A program made the translations under genes and the position numbers. A model generated the notes under the pieces. That model was not told where the DNA came from and searched no databases. It worked only from the letters and a program-made list of their open reading frames with translations. Shown here piece by piece: positions 543 through 9,684 of a stretch of DNA of 9,768 bases. Numbering within the stretch: position 1 is the first letter of the stretch; every line of letters starts with the position of its first letter. The stretch comes from Nitrospinae bacterium RIFCSPLOWO2_12_FULL_45_22 (GTDB lineage Bacteria > 2-12-FULL-45-22), in the NCBI GenBank assembly GCA_001803565.1, contig MHDQ01000119.1, positions 1-9,768 on the forward strand, in the 5' to 3' direction.

Positions 543-1757
543 CTAAGGAAGGCCAATAATGGTTACATTACAGGCAAATTTTCCTGGATGTCCTCCCTGG
601 TTATGGGCCAGGGCGAGCCTTTGATCTGTCTTCCATTTCTTCTTCTGGCGAGAAGGTTCCTGCGCCCTTCCTTGAATTTGTTTGTAGTTTTCATAGGTCT
701 CCCGGCAGCCGCTTGCGCCTATGGGATGGCCGAAGGATTTCAAGCCACCGCTGATATTGACTGGCATCTCTCCTTCGAGGTAATAGGCATCCATATCAGA
801 CATCTGTTCTTTATATTTCCCTTGTTCACAAAGGAGGAGTGATTCGGTCGCTATAAGCTCCGCAATAGAGAAACAATCGTGGAGTTCAACCAAATCTATT
901 TCCTTCCGTGGGTCTTTTATCCCTGCCTGTTCATATGCCTGTCTGACCGCACCTTCTGTTTCATCCCACCAGGTAAAATCGTAATCGGTTAAAACCTTTC
1001 CCATGCCCGGACCTGAAGCGGCGCCGAAACCCTTAAACACAACATAATCATCCCTGAAATTTTTGGCATCTTCGGTCCGACAAAGTATAGCTGCTGAGGC
1101 ACCATCGGTTACTCCGCAGCAATCAAACAATCCCAGGGGCCAGGAAATCATTGGTGCCTTTATGACTTGTTCTTCGGTTATCTCTCTCCGGAGGTGGGCT
1201 TTGGGATTTCTGGCGCCATAATGATGGCTCTTCACGGAAATTTTTGCCAATAGCTTCTTCCCTTCTTCTGGGGTTAGACTGTATTTAGCGAAATAACTGG
1301 TTGCGGCTAATGCATAACGCGTGGGTGCACTCACACCATAGAAGTAGACCGGTCGCCATGCCTCTGTGCCGCTTGTCGTCGGGCCAGTGGCTAATCCACC
1401 AAAACCCACATCTTTCATCTTCTCGGCCCCAATAACAAGGACAAGGTCGAATGCCTTGGCAATCAGCGCGTAACAAGCATTTCTCAGCGCCTCCTGCCCT
1501 GTGCCACAGGCATTTTCCACCCGGGTACAAGGTTTGGATCCCAGTTTCAAGGGAGAGGCTAAAGTCCCAGCGGCAGTGGTGTTGTACATGGTTCCAATCC
1601 AGGCCGCTTGAATATCATTTGACCCTATGCCGGCGTCTTCATATGCCTCATAAGCGGCCTCGATGACTAAATCCTCAATGCCTACATCCCATCTCTCCCC
1701 AAATTGGGTGCACCCCATACCAACTATAGCAACTTTGTCTTTAATGCTTTCTGCCAT
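543..1757 (-). CDS. SCP2-type thiolase (acetyl-CoA acetyltransferase family)
   Basis: A 404-residue protein of the lipid-transfer/SCP-x thiolase family, which cleaves 3-ketoacyl-CoA or condenses two acyl-CoAs in the cytoplasm. Visible landmarks are the N-terminal VAIVGMGCTQFG segment, the nucleophile motif NACGTGQEA with Cys84, the ELHDCFS motif with His293, and GHPIGASG with His344. The C-terminus is HNQGGHPGKFACNVTIIG, where His385 and the GG pair replace the second catalytic Cys loop of classical thiolases, as is usual in this subfamily. The length is normal. ATG 1757 follows an AGGGAGGGG ribosome binding site. The stop of the upstream HMGCS/OB-fold gene is only 15 bp away, so the two are almost certainly co-transcribed and probably form a complex, as archaeal thiolase/HMGCS and BbsB/BbsA do. 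The family call is firm; the acyl-CoA substrate is unknown. Confidence 0.93.
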   Translation of the reverse strand: MAESIKDKVAIVGMGCTQFGERWDVGIEDLVIEAAYEAYEDAGIGSNDIQAAWIGTMYNTTAAGTLASPLKLGSKPCTRVENACGTGQEALRNACYALIAKAFDLVLVIGAEKMKDVGFGGLATGPTTSGTEAWRPVYFYGVSAPTRYALAATSYFAKYSLTPEEGKKLLAKISVKSHHYGARNPKAHLRREITEEQVIKAPMISWPLGLFDCCGVTDGASAAILCRTEDAKNFRDDYVVFKGFGAASGPGMGKVLTDYDFTWWDETEGAVRQAYEQAGIKDPRKEIDLVELHDCFSIAELIATESLLLCEQGKYKEQMSDMDAYYLEGEMPVNISGGLKSFGHPIGASGCRETYENYKQIQGRAQEPSRQKKKWKTDQRLALAHNQGGHPGKFACNVTIIGLP

Positions 1758-1772
1758 TTTTCCCCTCCCTTG

Positions 1773-3191
1773 CTATACTCTTATTGGTCGTGGCTTCCAG
1801 CAATAGTTGTGGATGCCCGATCCGTCATGAAGGTTTCTTAATGTCATTTCTACCCTCATACCCACGCTGACCTTTCCTGGTTCACGATCGGTCAATACGC
1901 CAACATACCTCCCTCCCCCCTCAAGGTCAATCACGCAACTGATACTGGGCAAATCTTTCACCATAGCCCTTTCGTCCATAGCAAAGCTGAAAACAGTTCC
2001 TTGTTTATCCGAAAGCCTCACCTCTTCATAATCATCTTTAGTCCGGCAAACGGCACACACCCGCTGTATGGGATGCTGAATAGTGCCGCAACTCCGGCAC
2101 TTCCCTCCATGAAACCTGAGAAATTGGTTGCGTTCTCTCCATAGGGATGCGAGAGAGGAAATATCTGGTGGCCTGCGCTCAGCCTCCCACACCATCAGAT
2201 CACGAAAGAGGAGGTATTTGCCATAATTGGAAAGCTTGAGTTTTGAGTCAAGATGGCGTTTTATTCCACGCCTGTCTTTCATTTTTTCAATGTTTTCAGT
2301 AACGCTCAAACTGAAGGCATCAGCACCATCGCTATAGTTTGCAAGCAAAATCTTATCGCCCGGCTTTGCCTCTTCCAATGCCGCAATCAGCATCATGGGG
2401 GCAAGGGCACAGCCCGTATGACCCACACTGTCAAATAGAGGCTCCTGTATCTTTTTCGGATCTAACCCCAATATCTTAACCATTGCTGCGTGCCTCCTTG
2501 CATCTGGGGCGTACAGGACGAACTTAGAAAAATCTTCTTTGGCCAACTTATGCTTAGTCATTAAGCCCTTAATAGCCCGGGGAAGATGTTTCTCATAACC
2601 CTCTTCAATGATAAACCTGTCTTCCCAGGTGAGCAGATAGGTATCCTTCTCCTTTCTCCACCCGTCCATGAACTCACTATAGATGGTGTAGGTTCCGTCT
2701 ATTTCTACAGCAACATCTGTATCGCCCAGAATGATCGCCGCAGCTCCATCACCAAAGAGCGGTTCGGAACCAGAGTTAGGAGCAGGGAGACGGCAATCGG
2801 CAGTGGCGATGACTACCCTCTTTGCCGTTCCGCTTTTCACCGCTTCAGTACCTGCTTTCAAGGCGCTGGTTCCCGCCCGGAGAGAATTGGTAAAGTCAGC
2901 CGTGAAAAATTCCCCATCTACAGGAAAATCGAGTCCAGCGGCTATGATACTGGCACATTGCTTTTCTCGGTAAGGGGGGGTGTTTGAGGCAAAATAGAGG
3001 CCATCCGCCTGACGCTCCATGCTGCCCAGCGCGTCAATACAAGCTTCCACGGCCATCGTTATGGTATCTTCATCGAAGTTCGCGACTGCTTTTTCCCCTC
3101 TCCCTGTGGTGCCGCCCCAAACCTGGGCCAACAACTCCCGACTCATGCGGTATATCGGTATGTAAGCACCATAAGAAATTATTCCTACCAT
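1773..3191 (-). CDS. HMG-CoA-synthase-like protein fused to a zinc-ribbon/OB-fold (DUF35) domain
   Basis: A 472-residue two-domain protein. Residues 1 to about 310 are a thiolase-superfamily fold of the archaeal-type HMG-CoA synthase kind: MVGIISYGAYIP start, GEKAVANFDED, FGDGAAAIILGD, and GHTGCALAPM near 257-266. Residues about 358-470 are a DUF35 domain: a zinc ribbon with Cys365, Cys368, Cys379 and Cys382, then an OB-fold running through GTVFSFA, YVGVLTD and VGMRVEMTL. In archaea the DUF35 protein is usually a separate subunit bridging thiolase and HMGCS; here it is fused. By eye, the positions of the catalytic Glu, Cys and His hold Asn70 (ASNTPPY), Leu104 (NSLRAGT) and Tyr227 (VLYAPDAR), so classical synthase activity is unlikely. 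ATG 3191 has an AAGGAGA ribosome binding site at 3198-3204. It precedes the thiolase gene by 15 bp and probably supplies that enzyme's partner subunit. Confidence 0.88.
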   Translation of the reverse strand: MVGIISYGAYIPIYRMSRELLAQVWGGTTGRGEKAVANFDEDTITMAVEACIDALGSMERQADGLYFASNTPPYREKQCASIIAAGLDFPVDGEFFTADFTNSLRAGTSALKAGTEAVKSGTAKRVVIATADCRLPAPNSGSEPLFGDGAAAIILGDTDVAVEIDGTYTIYSEFMDGWRKEKDTYLLTWEDRFIIEEGYEKHLPRAIKGLMTKHKLAKEDFSKFVLYAPDARRHAAMVKILGLDPKKIQEPLFDSVGHTGCALAPMMLIAALEEAKPGDKILLANYSDGADAFSLSVTENIEKMKDRRGIKRHLDSKLKLSNYGKYLLFRDLMVWEAERRPPDISSLASLWRERNQFLRFHGGKCRSCGTIQHPIQRVCAVCRTKDDYEEVRLSDKQGTVFSFAMDERAMVKDLPSISCVIDLEGGGRYVGVLTDREPGKVSVGMRVEMTLRNLHDGSGIHNYCWKPRPIRV

Positions 3192-3280
3192 GTTTCGTCT
3201 CCTTCTATCATGATGGTCCTGTCTCCCTCAATAGCTATCACATTCCTTCCCCTTTTCGGTTGAGGCTGTTTTCAGCCTTT

Positions 3281-3457
3281 TCAAGTTGCTATAGCTATGG
3301 TTAATCCAAGAGAGACATCTATTGCAGGGGCCTTCCTGGCCTCTTCCCAGAACTTCTCATTCCGTATATCCACAGGTTTGGAAATCAGAAAGACATGTCG
3401 CCCAGCCCTTTCGGGTTGATCAAGGCTAAAGGCTTGTGGGACATGCTCGGTGATCAC
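3281..3457 (-). pseudogene. Possible gene remnant or small unrecognised ORF (58 codons, GTG start)
   Basis: The minus strand is open from a TGA near 3492 to a TGA at 3281-3283. From a GTG at 3457 the peptide begins MITEHVPQAFSLDQPE, continues through GRHVFLISKP and KFWEEARKAP, and ends GLTIAIAT. The composition, with charged and hydrophobic residues mixed, looks more protein-like than the shadow frames. However, there is no ATG and no ribosome binding site, and I do not recognise the family. A 6-bp GC stem (3263-3268 / 3273-3278) follows the stop directly. It could be the tail of a decayed gene lying upstream of the HMGCS/thiolase pair, or chance. Confidence 0.25.
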
Positions 3458-3581
3458 TGTGGTAAATTTTTGCTTTTTGCGGGGGAGTCAGTATTATCAG
3501 GAATTTTGTTTATAGCCTTTTTAAGTCTGCAAAGAGACATTAAATTTTCCCCAGTTTAGAGAGATATTAGCTTTTTTAATA

Positions 3582-3710
3582 TTGCTACAGAGGCCCAGAG
3601 AACGCAGAGGAAGGGTAGTTGCAGAGCCCGGGTACCCCATGGGTGCTGCTTAAACTTTTACCTTTATGGCAGGGCAAGGCCCTGCTGCTACTCTGTGTCC
3701 TCTGTGGCTA
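3582..3710. repeat. Dispersed intergenic repeat with 'acagagg..cagag' inverted ends
   Basis: The left end (ttgctacagaggcccagag, 3582-3600) and the right end (ctctgtgtcctctgtggcta, 3691-3710) are imperfect inverted repeats with a 2-nt length difference. The left end continues with a further cagagg unit. The interior holds a perfect 7-bp hairpin, gcagggc-aag-gccctgc (3669-3685). Repeats with 'gccacagaggacacagag' ends recur between genes in many bacterial genomes. It is non-coding and could be a small non-autonomous element. Confidence 0.6.
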
Positions 3711-3718
3711 AATGTCTG

Positions 3719-3769
3719 AAAAGTTTTAGGGAAAAACTTTTGTCTCTAAATTTTGCTCAAACAAAATTT
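3719..3769 (-). terminator. Two tandem AT-rich palindromes after the radical SAM genes, possible terminator
   Basis: Just downstream of the first-from-left radical SAM gene are two perfect palindromes: aaattttg / caaaattt (3748-3755 and 3762-3769, 6-nt loop) and aaaagtttt / aaaactttt (3719-3727 and 3733-3741, 5-nt loop). On the minus strand the second ends in TTTT. They sit where a transcription end is expected, between the gene stop and the dispersed repeat. The stems contain almost no GC, so termination strength is doubtful. Confidence 0.35.
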
Positions 3770-3772
3770 CTA

Positions 3773-5578
3773 TTAAATCAACCGCATTCTGAATTCCTGT
3801 ATAGGCCCAGGGGTCGTCCCTTTGGGGGCCCAAATATTATCAACGTATCCCAGGAGTTTCTTGAAGGTATCTTCTTTAAACCCCCGAAAATTTCTATAGA
3901 ATTCATATTTCTTATCCCTTACCGGATAAACGACTTTATAGGGAGACCCGTTTTCCCCTTTTCCGTTTTTCTCATAGATATACATCTTGAAAGGTTCCTG
4001 CTTAGGGTGGCGATTTTGGGGATCAATATGCTCCTGAAGTTTTGCCTGGAAGGCCTTGGTCAGGACATAATAGGACATGATCTCCTGAGATGGGGTGGGT
4101 TTCCCGAAGTTCTTTATGTACCGCTCCTCGGTCTGCCTAATTCTACGTCGCACCAGACCATTGGGGGCAAAATGTTCACAGGCCCGGATCATGGGATAGA
4201 GCATTTCAGCACCCTCTTTATGAAGCCCGGCCCGCTGGTCTCGCAATAAGGGGTTATTAGATGCCCGACACCAGTCGTAACCATTGAGCTCTACCTTGAG
4301 CTGCCGCATTACCGTGGGGCCCCAGGTATGATAAAATTTACGATAGCCCTCTAAGATTAGATGCTCAATCTCATGGGGCTCAAAATTCTTATGCTTATAG
4401 CCACCTCCATAGAAATTTATATCGACCCAGGGGACATCATATACCCGCCCTTCTTCCTGGAGCCGGTCCCAGAGGGGAGTGCCGGGAAAGGGAAAGACCC
4501 GACTGATCTGGTGGGTGGTCATCTCACAGGCAACATAATAATTGATATCCTCCAGGATATTTACCCGGTCATGGAAATCAAACCCCAACATCAGACCGCC
4601 ACTACAAGATATCCCCCTCTTTAGAAGGCTATGGATAGTATCCTTGGCATCTCCTGTCCTCTTCTGATAGCCTTCCTTGGGGGCAAACTTTGACTCCACA
4701 CCGATAAAGGTGGCCTTAAATCCATTCAAAGGTAATTCATCAAAGTCGTACTGGCTCAGGGACTCTACGCTACTGGGTGATACCCAATTGATTTTCCTGA
4801 GACCAAACTCGGTATCTTCCTGGATAAGCCGGCCTACTTCCCGAACCTCATTGGTATATTTCAACCAATCTTCATCATAGATACTCACCATTATCGTATC
4901 GGGATAGGTCCGATAGACCTTTTTTATATCCTCAAAGATTTTATCTGGGGGAGAGATCTGAATTCGGTTATTGTCGTGCATCTCTGTCGTCGCGCAAAAA
5001 TCACAGGCACTGGGACAGCCCAACCCCGCGGTAACCCATCCCATATTCCCTTTAGGATGATGATCTATCCAGGGAAGATTATCGCCACAGCGTGGTAAAA
5101 GGTTTTGGGTAATGGGGGCATCGACTGGTTCTCCCAGCAGCTTGCGGAAGAAACTGACCCCTTCTCCCTTACAAATATAATCCGCATGCTCTTTCTTGAA
5201 ATCCTCTGGATAATAGGCATTGAGGGCCAGGGCCCCATAATGGCCCAGGACAATCTTGCTCTGGGGAGATAACTTACGGATCATCTTGCACATATCCAGA
5301 GTGATATCCATACAGGTCTGGAAAAAGCTTATCCCCACAAAGTCATATCCTTTTTTTACCTCTTTTTCAAAATAGTCCCAGGTAGGGTACTCCAGGAAGA
5401 TCGAGGGTACGGAGATATTCTGGGCAATGGTATGTACCCCCTGGCAGTGGACATGACCACTCAAGGTAAAGATATCCTGCTGCTGCGTGAAGCGCTGGAA
5501 GGAAATATCAGTCAAGGATACATTATTAAACTGGATGGGATAGGGCTGGCAGGGAGTAGAAAATAATATCTTCGTCAT
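3773..5578 (-). CDS. B12-binding-domain radical SAM protein (paralogue 1)
   Basis: A 601-residue cytoplasmic iron-sulfur enzyme. Residues 1 to about 150 resemble a cobalamin-binding Rossmann domain, ending in the typical GHYGALALN...DYICKGEG stretch. The radical SAM domain follows, with the cluster motif GLGCPSACDFC (Cys188, Cys192, Cys195) and barrel segments such as SGGLMLGFDFHD. The last 170 or so residues are an uncharacterised C-terminal domain. The frame stays open for 44 codons upstream, but I start at ATG 5578: it has a GGAGGAAGG ribosome binding site and lines up exactly with the start of the neighbouring paralogue (MTKILFSTPC against MPKILFSTPC). Family members use S-adenosylmethionine and cobalamin for methylations or other radical reactions. 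The N-terminal FTQQQDIFTLSGH segment marks an uncharacterised branch. The substrate is unknown. It is probably co-transcribed with paralogue 2, 172 bp upstream. Confidence 0.9.
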   Translation of the reverse strand: MTKILFSTPCQPYPIQFNNVSLTDISFQRFTQQQDIFTLSGHVHCQGVHTIAQNISVPSIFLEYPTWDYFEKEVKKGYDFVGISFFQTCMDITLDMCKMIRKLSPQSKIVLGHYGALALNAYYPEDFKKEHADYICKGEGVSFFRKLLGEPVDAPITQNLLPRCGDNLPWIDHHPKGNMGWVTAGLGCPSACDFCATTEMHDNNRIQISPPDKIFEDIKKVYRTYPDTIMVSIYDEDWLKYTNEVREVGRLIQEDTEFGLRKINWVSPSSVESLSQYDFDELPLNGFKATFIGVESKFAPKEGYQKRTGDAKDTIHSLLKRGISCSGGLMLGFDFHDRVNILEDINYYVACEMTTHQISRVFPFPGTPLWDRLQEEGRVYDVPWVDINFYGGGYKHKNFEPHEIEHLILEGYRKFYHTWGPTVMRQLKVELNGYDWCRASNNPLLRDQRAGLHKEGAEMLYPMIRACEHFAPNGLVRRRIRQTEERYIKNFGKPTPSQEIMSYYVLTKAFQAKLQEHIDPQNRHPKQEPFKMYIYEKNGKGENGSPYKVVYPVRDKKYEFYRNFRGFKEDTFKKLLGYVDNIWAPKGTTPGPIQEFRMRLI

Positions 5579-5582
5579 GATA

Positions 5583-5592
5583 CCTTCCTCCG
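5583..5592 (-). promoter_or_regulatory. Ribosome binding site deciding the start of radical SAM paralogue 1
   Basis: The minus strand reads CGGAGGAAGG, ending 4 nt before ATG 5578. This favours the internal ATG over the upstream in-frame start at 5710, which would add 44 residues absent from the paralogue. Confidence 0.75.
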
Positions 5593-5750
5593 TTACAATG
5601 AAAAAAGCGTTGAAGATGACTGCTATAGGCCCTCTGTTAGAACTGGGGATCGCGGGAGTAGGAATCAGGATGGGGAAATCAGAAAGTTTACCCCACACCT
5701 GATCACTCACCCCTGTTGCTGATAGCTGATGCTAAATGCTTACAAAGGTC

Positions 5751-7559
5751 TTAGAGCAGTTTAAATTTTACCGATGAAGAGATAGCAGGAGATTCCTCGG
5801 CCTCTGCTATGCGATCCTTATCCAGGAAAGGCATGAGCTTACCCAAGGCCCCTTCCTTTATCCCCCTCCATGCCTGGTAAAACTCATATCCACGATCCCT
5901 TACTGGATAGAGGACTTTGTATGGCGCCCCGTTTTTCCCTTGGCCATTCTTTTCATAGATATAGACCTTGAAGGGTTCCTGCTTGGGATGCCGGTTGCGG
6001 GGGTCTATAGCCTCTTGGATCTTGGCCCGGAAGGCCTCAGCCAGGACAAAGTAGGACATTACCTCCTGAGATCGACGGGGTTTGCCAAAAAGCTTGATAT
6101 AGCGCTCCTGAGTTTGCCTGATCCTCCTCCTTACCAGTCCGTTTGGCGCAAAGTGTTCACAGGCCCTAATCATAGGGAATAGCATCTGAGCGGTCTCCTG
6201 ATGCAATCCAGCACGCTCTTGCCTCAACAGTTTATTATTACTGGCCCGACACCATTCGTAGCCATTTAATTCCACCTTTAGCAGACGCATAACAGTAGGA
6301 CCCCAGGTCTCATAAAACTTTCGATAGCCTTCAAGGGTTAAACTCTCGAGTTCATGAGGCTCAAAATTTCGATATTTCATTCCCCCACCATAGAAGCTCT
6401 GGTCTACCCATGGTATATCATACAACCTATCTTCTTCCTTTAGGCGGTGCCAGAGAGGTGTCCCGGGAAAAGGCGAAACCCGGCTGATTTGGTGGTTGGT
6501 CATCTCACAGGCTATATAATAGTTTATATCCTCCAGGATATTAACCCGATCATGGAAATCAAATCCCAACATCAGACCACCAGAGCAAGTTATCCCTCTG
6601 CTTAAAAGCTGGTGGATGGTGTCTTTGGCTTCTCCTGCCCTCTTCTGGTAACCTTCTGTAGGGGCAAATTTTGACTCTACGCCGATAAATGTTGCCTTAA
6701 AGCCAGTGAGGGGTAATTCGTCCCATGCGTACTGGCTCAAAGACTCGACACTGCTGGCCGCTACAAAGTTAATCTTTCTCAGGCCAAATTCGGTATCTTC
6801 TTGAATAAGTCTACCGAGCTCACGGACTTCCTCGGTATATTTGAGCCAATCTTCATCATAAATTATTATTCCCATGGTTTCAGGAAAAGTCTGATAGACC
6901 CTTTTTATCTCCTCAAATAATTTATCTGGCGGATAGAGCTGTATCCTTTCATTCGCATGCATCTCGGTAGTGGCACAAAAATCGCAGGCACTGGGGCAGC
7001 CTAGACCAGCAACCACAAACCCCACCGCCCCCCGGGGGTGCTTATCTAACCAGGGTAAGTTATCACTGCACCGAGGAAATTGTCGCTGTTCAATGGGGGC
7101 ATCAATAGCTTCTCCCAGCAATTGCCGGAAGAAGGATACTCCTTCACCAATGCAGACATAGTCAGCATGTTCCCGTTTAAAATCCTCTGGAAAGAAGGCA
7201 TTAAAGGCCAGGGCGCCATAATGTCCTAACACTATCTTGGTATGGGGGGATAGTCTTCGGATCATCCGGCACATATCCAACACGATATCCATACAGGTCT
7301 GAAAAAAAGTGATTCCAATGAAATCGTACTCTTTTCTGACTTCCTTTTCAAAGTAGTCCCAGGTAGGATATTCCAAGAAGATGGAAGGGGCGGAGATGTT
7401 CTGGGCAATTAAATGGGTTCCGTGGCAATGCATATGGCCACTCATGGTAAAGATATCCTGTTGTTGGGTGAATCGCTGAGAAGAGGCATCGGTTAAAGAG
7501 ACATTGTTGAATTGCGTTGGGTAAGGCTGGCAGGGGGTGCTAAATAATATCTTGGGCAT
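5751..7559 (-). CDS. B12-binding-domain radical SAM protein (paralogue 2)
   Basis: A 602-residue protein colinear with paralogue 1. By eye about 80% of the first 195 residues are identical, with no gaps and the same cluster cysteines (Cys188, Cys192, Cys195 in GLGCPSACDFC). The B12-binding-like N-terminal domain (GHYGALAFN...DYVCIGEG), the radical SAM core and the roughly 170-residue C-terminal domain are all kept. Differences concentrate in residues 151-183 and the last 30 residues. ATG 7559 has an AAGGAGGGA ribosome binding site (7566-7574). It is the first gene behind a good sigma70-like promoter at 7684-7712, so it probably leads a two-gene transcript. Both copies retain cluster ligands and full length, so both are likely active. 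They may act on successive or different substrates, or as a heterodimer. The family is clear; the reaction is unknown. Confidence 0.92.
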   Translation of the reverse strand: MPKILFSTPCQPYPTQFNNVSLTDASSQRFTQQQDIFTMSGHMHCHGTHLIAQNISAPSIFLEYPTWDYFEKEVRKEYDFIGITFFQTCMDIVLDMCRMIRRLSPHTKIVLGHYGALAFNAFFPEDFKREHADYVCIGEGVSFFRQLLGEAIDAPIEQRQFPRCSDNLPWLDKHPRGAVGFVVAGLGCPSACDFCATTEMHANERIQLYPPDKLFEEIKRVYQTFPETMGIIIYDEDWLKYTEEVRELGRLIQEDTEFGLRKINFVAASSVESLSQYAWDELPLTGFKATFIGVESKFAPTEGYQKRAGEAKDTIHQLLSRGITCSGGLMLGFDFHDRVNILEDINYYIACEMTNHQISRVSPFPGTPLWHRLKEEDRLYDIPWVDQSFYGGGMKYRNFEPHELESLTLEGYRKFYETWGPTVMRLLKVELNGYEWCRASNNKLLRQERAGLHQETAQMLFPMIRACEHFAPNGLVRRRIRQTQERYIKLFGKPRRSQEVMSYFVLAEAFRAKIQEAIDPRNRHPKQEPFKVYIYEKNGQGKNGAPYKVLYPVRDRGYEFYQAWRGIKEGALGKLMPFLDKDRIAEAEESPAISSSVKFKLL

Positions 7560-7683
7560 GATCTATCCCTCCTTAGCAATGTGAAGCCATAATATCGCCA
7601 CATGAATCCTACCAGACGATTGGTCAATTATTATGGCCAGTTACATATTCAAGATTATCTGTTCATATCTCGAATAATAGTTC

Positions 7684-7712
7684 AGAATATATAATGTCGA
7701 AAAAATTGTCAA
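7684..7712 (-). promoter_or_regulatory. Sigma70-like promoter for the radical SAM genes
   Basis: On the minus strand a perfect TTGACA (-35, 7707-7712) is followed by a 17-nt AT-rich spacer and TATTCT (-10, 7684-7689). An overlapping TATATT at 15-nt spacing is an alternative -10. The expected start of transcription is near 7677, giving a leader of about 120 nt before ATG 7559. Confidence 0.6.
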
Positions 7713-7748
7713 GAAGTTATTTTGGAATACTCAACACCCAGTGACAGG

Positions 7749-7771
7749 TTTATGACCCAGGGGGTCATAAA
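7749..7771. promoter_or_regulatory. Perfect 23-bp palindrome, probable operator upstream of the radical SAM promoter
   Basis: The arms tttatgaccc (7749-7758) and gggtcataaa (7762-7771) are a perfect 10-bp inverted repeat around a 3-nt centre. Its centre lies about 83 bp upstream of the predicted transcription start, a spacing compatible with an activator site. It also lies 58 bp past the end of the CoA-transferase gene, but no T-run follows the stem on the minus strand, so a terminator is less likely. The binding protein is unknown and no regulator gene is present in the window. Confidence 0.5.
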
Positions 7772-7828
7772 AACTTCCATAAGAAGGCAAAAAATTTTTA
7801 ATACCAAAGTTATGGTTTGTTTCTCCTA

Positions 7829-9148
7829 TTAAATTATCTTCTCCCCTTTTAGTCCCTCCAGATCTCCTCCCGTCAGGCCCAAATACTTGCCATAAATATA
7901 TTCATTATCAGCACCTATAGGCTTAGCAACCGTCTTGATGCGCGGTGGCGTCTTAGAGAAGCGAATAGGGAGGGGAGAGACGGTCATTTTTCCATAGTAA
8001 GGATCGTCAAAGTCTATGACAGAACCCCTAGCCCGATAATGGGGTTCCTGGCATATGTCTTTTGCATTCATCACCGGGGCACAGACGAAAGAGTATCTAT
8101 CCGCTATTTCCCGCAACTCATCCCGTGTGTATTGGCTAATCCAGGTATCGATGGTTGCCATGAGCTCCTCCTGATTTTCTACCCGTTCGTAATTGTTCAG
8201 AAAGCGGGGGTCATTTTTTAATTCCGGTTTTCCCATGGCCTCACACAGATTATGGAATATCTTATTGCTTCCACAGCCAATAATTACATACCCATCACTG
8301 CACTTTGTTACATAATAAGGGGCGACCACATCGTTTTTGTTACCCCGGCGCTCAAAAATATCCTTAAAGACACTATATCTAACCAGGGTATAATCCGAAA
8401 TCCTTATTAGTCCTTCAATCTGAGAAAATTCAATAAATTGTCCTTCACCCGTCTTTTCCCGATAATAAAGGGCAGCCATAATAGCAGCAAAACCCCAAAT
8501 AGCCCCTACTGTATCACCGATCCCTAATGACTGGGTGGGAATACCGGGATATTTGGGGTCATCTTCAGGAAAGCCAGTCGCATAAAGCTTACCTCCATAT
8601 GCCTGGGCCAGCAGATCATAAGAGATCATATCTGCTTTAGGTCCCCATTGTCCCGGTCCATTGGTAGCCAGATAGATAAGACGGGGGTTTTCTTTGTTTA
8701 GATGACGATACCCTAATCCCCACTTATCCATAGCCCCTGCCCGGAGGTTTTCGAGAATGACATCGGTATCAGGCATTAGGGCAAACTTCTTAAATATTTC
8801 CTGACCTTTCTGGGTAGTTATATCGAGTGTGACATGATATTTATTTCTCGCAGTGGTAAAGGTAATCAAATTCGATCCCTTTATTTCATGCTTCCTAGAA
8901 CCAGCATAGCGGATAGTATCGCCACCCATAGGGAGATTCTGACGATTTCCTGGCGGCAACTCAAATTTTATAACCTCAGCCCCTAACTCTGCCATAAAAC
9001 AGGAAACCATAGGACCGTTTAAGGCAGTGGCGACCTCAAGTACCCTTACCCCTTTTAACAATTCAGGCTTTTCCCTGACTTTGGATGGATCAAACATAGA
9101 CCTGGCATAATCATGATACTCTTCCTTTTTCCATTCACTCTTTTGCAT
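7829..9148 (-). CDS. CaiB/BaiF family (family III) CoA-transferase
   Basis: A 439-residue cytoplasmic enzyme that transfers CoA between carboxylic acids through enzyme-anhydride and thioester intermediates on an aspartate. Family landmarks appear in order: LKGVRVLEVATALNGP (31-46), LGAEVIKFE, NKYHVTLDI (102-110), ILENLRAGAMDKWGLGY (131-147), and SYDLLAQAYGG (176-186) with Asp178 in the position of the catalytic aspartate. GIGDTVGAIWGFAAIMAALYYREKTGEGQFIEFSQIE (209-245) follows. An extra 30 or so residues precede the usual N-terminal start, making it slightly longer than typical members. ATG 9148 follows a GGGAGGA ribosome binding site (9156-9162). It is the first gene of the cluster, 269 bp ahead of the radical SAM genes, which have their own promoter. 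By analogy with BbsEF and BaiF it would activate an acid to its CoA ester, but donor and acceptor cannot be read from the sequence. Confidence 0.93.
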   Translation of the reverse strand: MQKSEWKKEEYHDYARSMFDPSKVREKPELLKGVRVLEVATALNGPMVSCFMAELGAEVIKFELPPGNRQNLPMGGDTIRYAGSRKHEIKGSNLITFTTARNKYHVTLDITTQKGQEIFKKFALMPDTDVILENLRAGAMDKWGLGYRHLNKENPRLIYLATNGPGQWGPKADMISYDLLAQAYGGKLYATGFPEDDPKYPGIPTQSLGIGDTVGAIWGFAAIMAALYYREKTGEGQFIEFSQIEGLIRISDYTLVRYSVFKDIFERRGNKNDVVAPYYVTKCSDGYVIIGCGSNKIFHNLCEAMGKPELKNDPRFLNNYERVENQEELMATIDTWISQYTRDELREIADRYSFVCAPVMNAKDICQEPHYRARGSVIDFDDPYYGKMTVSPLPIRFSKTPPRIKTVAKPIGADNEYIYGKYLGLTGGDLEGLKGEKII

Positions 9149-9230
9149 ATTCCTATCCTCCCATTATGCCCCAACCTCGGGGGTTTGGCTTACTATTTGA
9201 CAAATCCATATGGAATAAAAAAAAGGGGGT

Positions 9231-9251
9231 ATTCACTTGACTCAAGTGAAT
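9231..9251. promoter_or_regulatory. Perfect 21-bp palindrome upstream of the CoA-transferase gene
   Basis: The arms attcacttga (9231-9240) and tcaagtgaat (9242-9251) are a perfect 10-bp inverted repeat around one base, 83 bp before ATG 9148. Size and symmetry suit a dimeric repressor of the TetR or GntR kind. On the minus strand the palindrome is followed by ACCCCC and eight T (9224-9217), and a GGG lies on its other side, so a terminator or attenuator is an alternative reading. No clear -35/-10 pair was found nearby. Confidence 0.45.
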
Positions 9252-9684
9252 TTTCCCTAACATATTGAACTTATTGGGTTTCTGTACATTTCATTGTGTG
9301 AGGCCAGGATGTGTAATAAGTCTCTATATTTCAATAAGTTAGCTGTTGCATACTTGAACAAAGGGGATACCCCCTTTAAAAAAATAAAAAACATATGGGA
9401 GGAATCACCTATCAGTGGTGAATGAGACAGAAGAAACAACGGGCATGTCCAGGTACCGGTACTGGGGGAGGTGAGCTAGCACTGATATTTCTTTGTTTTT
9501 GGCGAAAGCTGGCAGTCGAACGGTCGCTTCAAAAGTGCAGACTGGTGATTACTCCTCATCAACTCAACAACCAGTGAAAATCTGGATTCAAAGACCAATT
9601 AATTATTTGAATAATGAGGTATTCGAACAGCTAGTCGAATTTTATTATATCCTTGTGTGATATGTCAACCTCTTATTATGTTTT
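9252..9684. other. Intergenic region without a convincing gene
   Basis: Both strands hold only short frames. A TTG-start frame at 9257-9439 (minus) and an ATG frame at 9422-9577 (plus, 51 residues) lack good ribosome binding sites and recognisable content. The stretch contains a hairpin at 9360-9377 and a short inverted repeat attcga/tcgaat at 9621-9640. It separates the CoA-transferase gene from the insertion-sequence-like end. Confidence 0.45.
9360..9377. repeat. GC hairpin aaagggg-atac-ccccttt next to an A-rich tract
   Basis: A perfect 7-bp inverted repeat with a 4-nt loop, followed on the plus strand by aaaaaaataaaaaacatatggg. The ATACCCCCTTT...CATATGG pattern recurs in inverted orientation at 9206-9234 beside the 21-bp palindrome. 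The function is unknown. Confidence 0.4.

Follow-up and report, generated by a model that had tools for sequence, protein, structure and literature searches.

The DNA analysed here, referred to as the window, spans the whole of contig C119 (9768 nt), which belongs to a 3.67-Mb, 321-contig assembly that is 85% complete. In the labels used below, G000 is the source genome, other G-numbers are other genomes, C denotes contigs and L denotes loci read. The open-reading frame listing placed five genes inside 543-9148, all on the minus strand, in the 5′ to 3′ order CaiB, radical SAM 1, radical SAM 2, HMGCS-OB and thiolase, in agreement with the preliminary description, which had reported a CaiB-type transferase, tandem B12-type radical SAM proteins, an HMGCS/OB fusion and a thiolase in one strand-consistent run. 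The features are as follows.

7829-9148, minus strand: CaiB/BaiF (class III) CoA-transferase, 439 aa, recognised by PF02515
7684-7712, minus strand: sigma-70-like promoter match TTGACA-17-TATTCT in the CaiB/RSAM1 gap, a weak feature matched by consensus only
5751-7559, minus strand: radical SAM protein 1 (RSAM1), 602 aa, recognised by its motif and AlphaFold fold matches
3773-5578, minus strand: radical SAM protein 2 (RSAM2), 601 aa, recognised as a paralogue of RSAM1 and by its start site
3192-3772, no strand: 581-bp intergenic gap between RSAM2 and HMGCS-OB, no gene recognised
1773-3191, minus strand: pseudo-HMGCS/OB-fold fusion (HMGCS-OB), 472 aa, recognised by Pfam and alignments
543-1757, minus strand: SCP2-type thiolase, 404 aa, recognised by Pfam, NCBIfam and alignment

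HMGCS-OB and the thiolase, 15 bp apart, are the only tightly spaced genes at the locus; the other gaps are 269 bp (CaiB/RSAM1), ~172 bp (RSAM1/RSAM2) and 581 bp (RSAM2/HMGCS-OB). The start of RSAM2 was taken as an ATG preceded by a GGAGGAA site, while the frame as called mechanically begins at a GTG at 5710. The 581-bp gap suggests that the RSAM pair and HMGCS-OB/thiolase are transcribed separately, and the promoter-like match at 7684-7712 is weakly consistent with separate transcription of the RSAM pair, so that the locus likely comprises two to four transcription units. The repeat search found no inverted repeat of at least 14 nt in the 581-bp gap, which does hold a short repeat-like sequence, agccacagaggacacagag ... 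ctctgcgttctctgggcctctgtagc. Repeat-like intergenic sequence, which includes an ORF that translates as ...CNSERSEES... as well as the motif agccacagaggacacagag, was seen at 122-403 and 3590-3710 of the window and probably represents repetitive or mobile elements. An inverted repeat of 17 nt, 82% complementary and with a 1-nt spacer, lies at 9224-9258, ~80-110 bp upstream of the CaiB start, and is a possible regulator site.

RSAM1 and RSAM2 are tandem paralogues with 76-78% identity and are sisters in the tree (support 100/99). RSAM1 consists of an N-terminal B12-type Rossmann domain, a radical SAM domain with the motif C188-x3-C192-x2-C195 and a helical C-terminus, and the three cysteines were invariant in 58 homologous sequences. 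Pfam matches to the radical SAM and B12-binding domains fell under the curated cut-offs (PF02310, 28.3 bits versus a cut-off of 32.1). The AlphaFold model of the RSAM protein (pLDDT 92) matched the solved B12-fold radical SAM structures AprD4 (Z 20.2), TsrM (16.6) and OxsB (16.2). CysS and TokK were matched too, and the matches span both the B12-type domain and the barrel. The CxxxCxxC motif and partial TIM-barrel fold expected of the radical SAM superfamily are both present, as is the N-terminal B12-type Rossmann domain, TsrM and OxsB having been matched over both domains. All five solved enzymes resemble the family in having an N-terminal Rossmann domain and a radical SAM barrel (Z ~12 to 20), but they share only 12-14% identity with it and have other gene neighbours. 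Because a PDB sequence search with the family profile gave no match at E 0.01 and no NCBIfam family claims the proteins, the RSAM family is uncharacterised as far as PDB and NCBIfam go. The nearest curated NCBIfam family, the hopanoid-associated radical SAM protein HpnJ, gave scores of 44.4 and 41.1 bits against a cut-off of 577.6, placing the RSAM proteins outside it. In the literature, nothing was found that identifies the family, and the main text of the paper on the benzene 'Magic' cluster does not mention radical SAM.

AprD4, a dehydratase and the top structural match, has the B12 fold but is not known to need cobalamin, so cobalamin use by the RSAM family, though likely, is unproven. Genes for cobalt uptake (NikR, CbiQ, an ABC ATPase and CbiM; L012 8108-11556, G000 contig C288) lie upstream of another RSAM copy in the source genome, on the same strand, which indirectly favours cobalamin use.

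In HMGCS-OB, Pfam recognised a ChsH2-type OB fold and a rubredoxin-like zinc ribbon fused to ACP_syn_III, the OB part being a PhlB-like zinc-ribbon/OB-fold domain (DUF35). Alignment to 6esq_I showed that the three catalytic positions of HMG-CoA synthase are replaced (Glu by Asn, Cys by Leu and His by Tyr). All three residues were missing in each of 14 fused HMGCS-OB proteins examined, from several phyla, and were retained in all three unfused HMG-CoA synthases from the same search. Without the catalytic Glu, Cys and His expected of that enzyme, HMGCS-OB is predicted not to be an HMG-CoA synthase and its HMGCS domain to be catalytically dead. A role in the mevalonate pathway was considered and rejected because these active-site residues are gone. 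Given the loss of the active site in every fused protein examined, annotation of fused HMGCS-OB proteins as HMG-CoA synthase is unwarranted. The adjoining thiolase (PF22691/PF00108) belongs to the PRK06157 equivalog (NF004810, 478.7 bits; cut-off 403) and, when aligned to 6esq_A, retains the catalytic Cys (ENACGTG) and His (GHPIGASG).

The best solved matches were PhlA-type proteins and 6esq for the HMGCS part, the 6esq DUF35 subunit for the OB part and the 6esq thiolase for the thiolase (186 bits). The arrangement of a thiolase retaining Cys and His beside an HMGCS-like and OB/zinc-ribbon component is that of the PhlACB and thiolase/HMGCS/DUF35 genes. The archaeal thiolase/HMGCS/DUF35 complex (6esq) has all three folds of the window proteins, but its HMGCS is an HMG-CoA-forming enzyme with Glu, Cys and His in place, whereas the window protein lacks all three residues. 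In PhlACB of Pseudomonas protegens (5m3k), PhlA lacks the key Cys and Glu and catalysis is carried out by the thiolase subunit PhlC only (PMC6392133). HMGCS-OB likewise is without the catalytic Cys and Glu, and both systems include a zinc-ribbon/OB component and a catalytic SCP2-like thiolase. Unlike PhlACB, in which the HMGCS-like and OB parts are separate, the window fuses them in one protein, and it carries no phloroglucinol pathway genes. PhlACB proper carries out a CoA-independent acyl transfer to a phenol, and the likeness of the window module to it is one of sequence. It is plausible that HMGCS-OB is a fused PhlAB-like scaffold for a working thiolase. In such a module (Module A), the two proteins would assemble like the archaeal complex or PhlACB, with the HMGCS domain as a dead scaffold and the OB domain bridging the subunits, and the thiolase alone would make or cleave C-C bonds adjacent to the thioester.

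Five HMGCS-OB genes are present in the source genome, with a thiolase adjoining on contigs C131, C174 and C196, and ten adjacent HMGCS-OB/thiolase pairs besides the window pair were found in six genomes. From these counts, HMGCS-OB/thiolase is a general module that recurs without RSAM genes; no RSAM-family gene occurred within the stretches read around the other HMGCS-OB copies of the source genome. At one of these loci (L149, G000 contig C196), the pair lies near two acyl-CoA dehydrogenases, one of them pimeloyl-CoA-dehydrogenase-like, and near BzdN-like benzoyl-CoA-reductase genes.

The single CaiB gene of the window, upstream of which the contig stops at 9768, encodes a class III CoA-transferase, as PF02515 (CoA_transf_3) was matched over its full length (338 bits, profile 1-366 of 366) and the catalytic Asp of the GYD/SYD motif is retained (alignment to 4ed9). 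Its score was under the cut-off of every NCBIfam equivalog, and the source genome contains ~26 PF02515 matches. As a member of this family, CaiB would transfer CoA to a carboxylic acid intermediate.

These five genes had been read in the preliminary description as a possible counterpart of bbs-type pathways, with cobalamin radical SAM chemistry in place of the glycyl-radical step. Such a dedicated pathway, in which CaiB would load CoA, the two RSAM proteins would activate or rearrange the acyl chain instead of a glycyl-radical enzyme, and HMGCS-OB/thiolase would remove acetyl-CoA, draws on the strand-consistent run of the genes. Like the window, the Bbs enzymes of benzylsuccinate beta-oxidation include a CaiB-family transferase, an SCP2-like thiolase and an OB-fold partner. 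However, the fumarate-adding enzyme is absent from the window, the Bbs CoA-transferase consists of two subunits (BbsEF) where the contig, up to its end, shows one CaiB gene, and we know of no HMGCS domain or component in the Bbs enzymes or in bbs pathways generally. The window proteins were also far under the cut-offs of the BbsB/BbsA models, with the Bbs thiolase models giving 165 bits of 750 (NF053628) and 25.4 bits of 250 (NF053627). With the HMGCS part predicted to be dead and HMGCS-OB/thiolase recurring without RSAM, comparison does not support a bbs-like series built from the CaiB, HMGCS-OB and thiolase of the window. The proposed replacement of the glycyl-radical step fared no better, as four glycyl-radical enzymes, whose type is uncertain, are encoded in the source genome (L197, L199 and L200 on G000 contigs C15, C176 and C8, and a fourth on C318), so there is no sign of RSAM standing in for a missing one. 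The three that were typed (C15, C176 and C8) scored under every curated NCBIfam cut-off. The 581-bp gap, with the separate transcription it suggests, likewise argues against a dedicated pathway, as does the absence of the gene set at the other RSAM loci of the source genome and at every other locus compared.

About five RSAM copies were found in the source genome: two in the window, one on C298, one on C267 and one apparently split over C288/C146. On C298, an acyl-CoA dehydrogenase lies 84 bp downstream of the RSAM copy and is nearest to cyclohexanecarboxyl-CoA dehydrogenase, yet under its cut-off (409 of 575 bits). On C146, the split copy adjoins two HGD-D proteins, relatives of benzoyl-CoA reductase and 2-hydroxyacyl-CoA dehydratase subunits, as well as a 3-hydroxyacyl-CoA dehydrogenase. 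CaiB was near RSAM at two source-genome loci (the window and C298) and HMGCS-OB/thiolase at the window only. The chance of finding CaiB beside at least two of five RSAM loci is ~0.03 (~26 CaiB matches in 3.67 Mb) and that of finding the HMGCS-OB module beside at least one is ~0.085 (5 HMGCS-OB genes in 3.67 Mb), figures computed with five trials although the five copies occupy four loci as places. The evidence from the same genome is therefore weak by itself.

These figures speak for an adjacency that arose by chance, the RSAM pair having a non-CoA role (for example in lipid, cofactor or natural product modification) in a genome full of CoA genes. A further RSAM copy, which sits between MetK and NrdD, fits that explanation. 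In the other genome of the phylum compared (G001), however, the gene order is acyl-CoA dehydrogenase, EtfB, EtfA, radical SAM, so that an acyl-CoA dehydrogenase adjoins RSAM in both phylum genomes (C298 and G001). As G001 is the only other phylum genome compared, all statements on the lineage are based on two genomes.

To find RSAM loci in other organisms, an alignment-based scan of contigs was used, a single-protein query having matched nothing. A first scan with few probes covered 79 loci in other organisms and showed CaiB, HMGCS-OB or thiolase near none of them, and ~20 further loci added one thiolase and nothing else of this set; the RSAM loci read from other phyla lacked both CaiB and HMGCS-OB. 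The expectation that these genes would travel with the radical SAM family thus did not hold for the set itself, but a broader association with acyl-CoA genes did appear. Outside the phylum, 8 of 25 loci of the close RSAM subfamily had a CoA gene within 6 kb compared to 3 of 70 loci of distant relatives (Fisher p = 0.0008), and with strong hits only the counts were 4 of 25 and 0 of 70 (p = 0.004); these p-values are descriptive, because the close/distant split was chosen after the data had been seen, with more probe proteins and loci than in the first scan. No CoA gene was present within 6 kb at the remaining 17 of the 25 close loci. Several of the CoA probe proteins came from one cluster, that of G288, which biases the counts towards this genome and its phylum-mate G150. 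Control stretches of the same genomes, 105 kb in total from arbitrary contigs, contained no CoA gene. Neighbourhoods were read stretch by stretch, and in GC-rich genomes some ORF tables list antisense ORFs rather than the real gene.

Clusters around the close subfamily in other phyla include acyl-CoA dehydrogenase, acyl-CoA ligase and, once, thiolase. In the large G288 cluster (L164/L175, contig C226), radical SAM, Asp-nucleophile hydrolase and acyl-CoA dehydrogenase genes are present twice each, alongside single genes for a BcrAD/DUF2229 activase, a thiolase, an acyl-CoA ligase, an epimerase and a ferredoxin-nitroreductase; reduced forms of the cluster occur in G150, G025 and G391. The occurrence of acyl-CoA clusters in at least two other phyla, together with the dehydrogenase adjacency within the phylum, argues against chance; the near absence of CoA neighbours from the distant relatives is in its favour, and on balance we regard chance adjacency as an improbable explanation.

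Outside the phylum, the commonest RSAM neighbour is an alpha/beta hydrolase of the haloalkane-dehalogenase/epoxide-hydrolase type, with an invariant Asp nucleophile plus Asp/His. It adjoins RSAM in all five loci of the sister clade of the lineage's RSAM genes (L038, L039, L040, L043 and L120), a clade that includes Desulfobacterales, Lokiarchaeota and others. An orthologue in the source genome (C114) is unlinked to RSAM and 81% identical to that of G001; in G001, 2.7 kb separate the hydrolase gene from another HMGCS-OB/thiolase pair. This proximity, and the pairing of the RSAM family with a thiolase in the G288 acyl-CoA cluster, speak for a single dedicated pathway at the window, which we nonetheless think unlikely. 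The second recurring neighbour is an ATP-driven activase of ~1,400 aa with BcrAD and DUF2229 domains (beside RSAM at L039 4270-8517, L163 539-4915, L041 14105-18319 and others), and as a speculation these activases could be ATP-driven electron donors to the RSAM family.

A more specific possibility is that RSAM methylates an acyl-chain carbon, by analogy with CysS and TokK, cobalamin-dependent methylases whose substrates are linked to pantetheine. Both enzymes are among the structural matches, and their solved complexes contain pantetheinylated substrates. MetK lies 770 bp upstream of the RSAM copy that it shares with NrdD as neighbours, and a homocysteine S-methyltransferase gene adjoins the G001 hydrolase orthologue, but each adjacency comes from a single locus. 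The dehydratase AprD4 and OxsB match equally well or better, and the reaction cannot be read from the fold. Methylation would be a sub-case of the explanation that we prefer, and we judge it quite unlikely.

The explanation that we prefer, with slightly better than even confidence, is that the window brings together separate modules, probably all serving anaerobic acyl-CoA catabolism, in which an uncharacterised RSAM pair lies beside two general CoA modules. The gene set of the window recurred at no other locus compared. Module B would be the two duplicated copies of the B12-fold radical SAM family, which is expanded in the source lineage and which in other phyla is linked with Asp-nucleophile alpha/beta hydrolases, BcrAD/DUF2229 activases, acyl-CoA dehydrogenases and acyl-CoA ligases. 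Its members would most likely carry out a radical modification of an acyl chain, as a CoA thioester or free acid, and would probably depend on cobalamin. The broad idea of an RSAM role in acyl-CoA metabolism is thus supported.

Two findings are the most useful: the fused HMGCS-OB family has lost its catalytic residues, and across phyla the RSAM family is partnered by an Asp-nucleophile hydrolase and by enzymes of acyl-CoA metabolism. The RSAM/hydrolase gene pair, found from Desulfobacterales to Lokiarchaeota, offers a compact two-gene target for expression and assay. The characterised B12-fold radical SAM enzymes known to us act mainly in the chemistry of cofactors, RNA, proteins and antibiotics. 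As a tentative and somewhat doubtful proposal, the RSAM family may be a new class of B12-dependent enzyme acting on carboxylic acids or CoA thioesters while a recalcitrant and possibly alicyclic substrate is degraded anaerobically, working with the Asp-nucleophile hydrolase and the ATP-driven activase in several phyla, including Lokiarchaeota, and multiplied in the source phylum. Should this hold, it would be the first B12-fold radical SAM enzyme known to us to work in central carbon breakdown.
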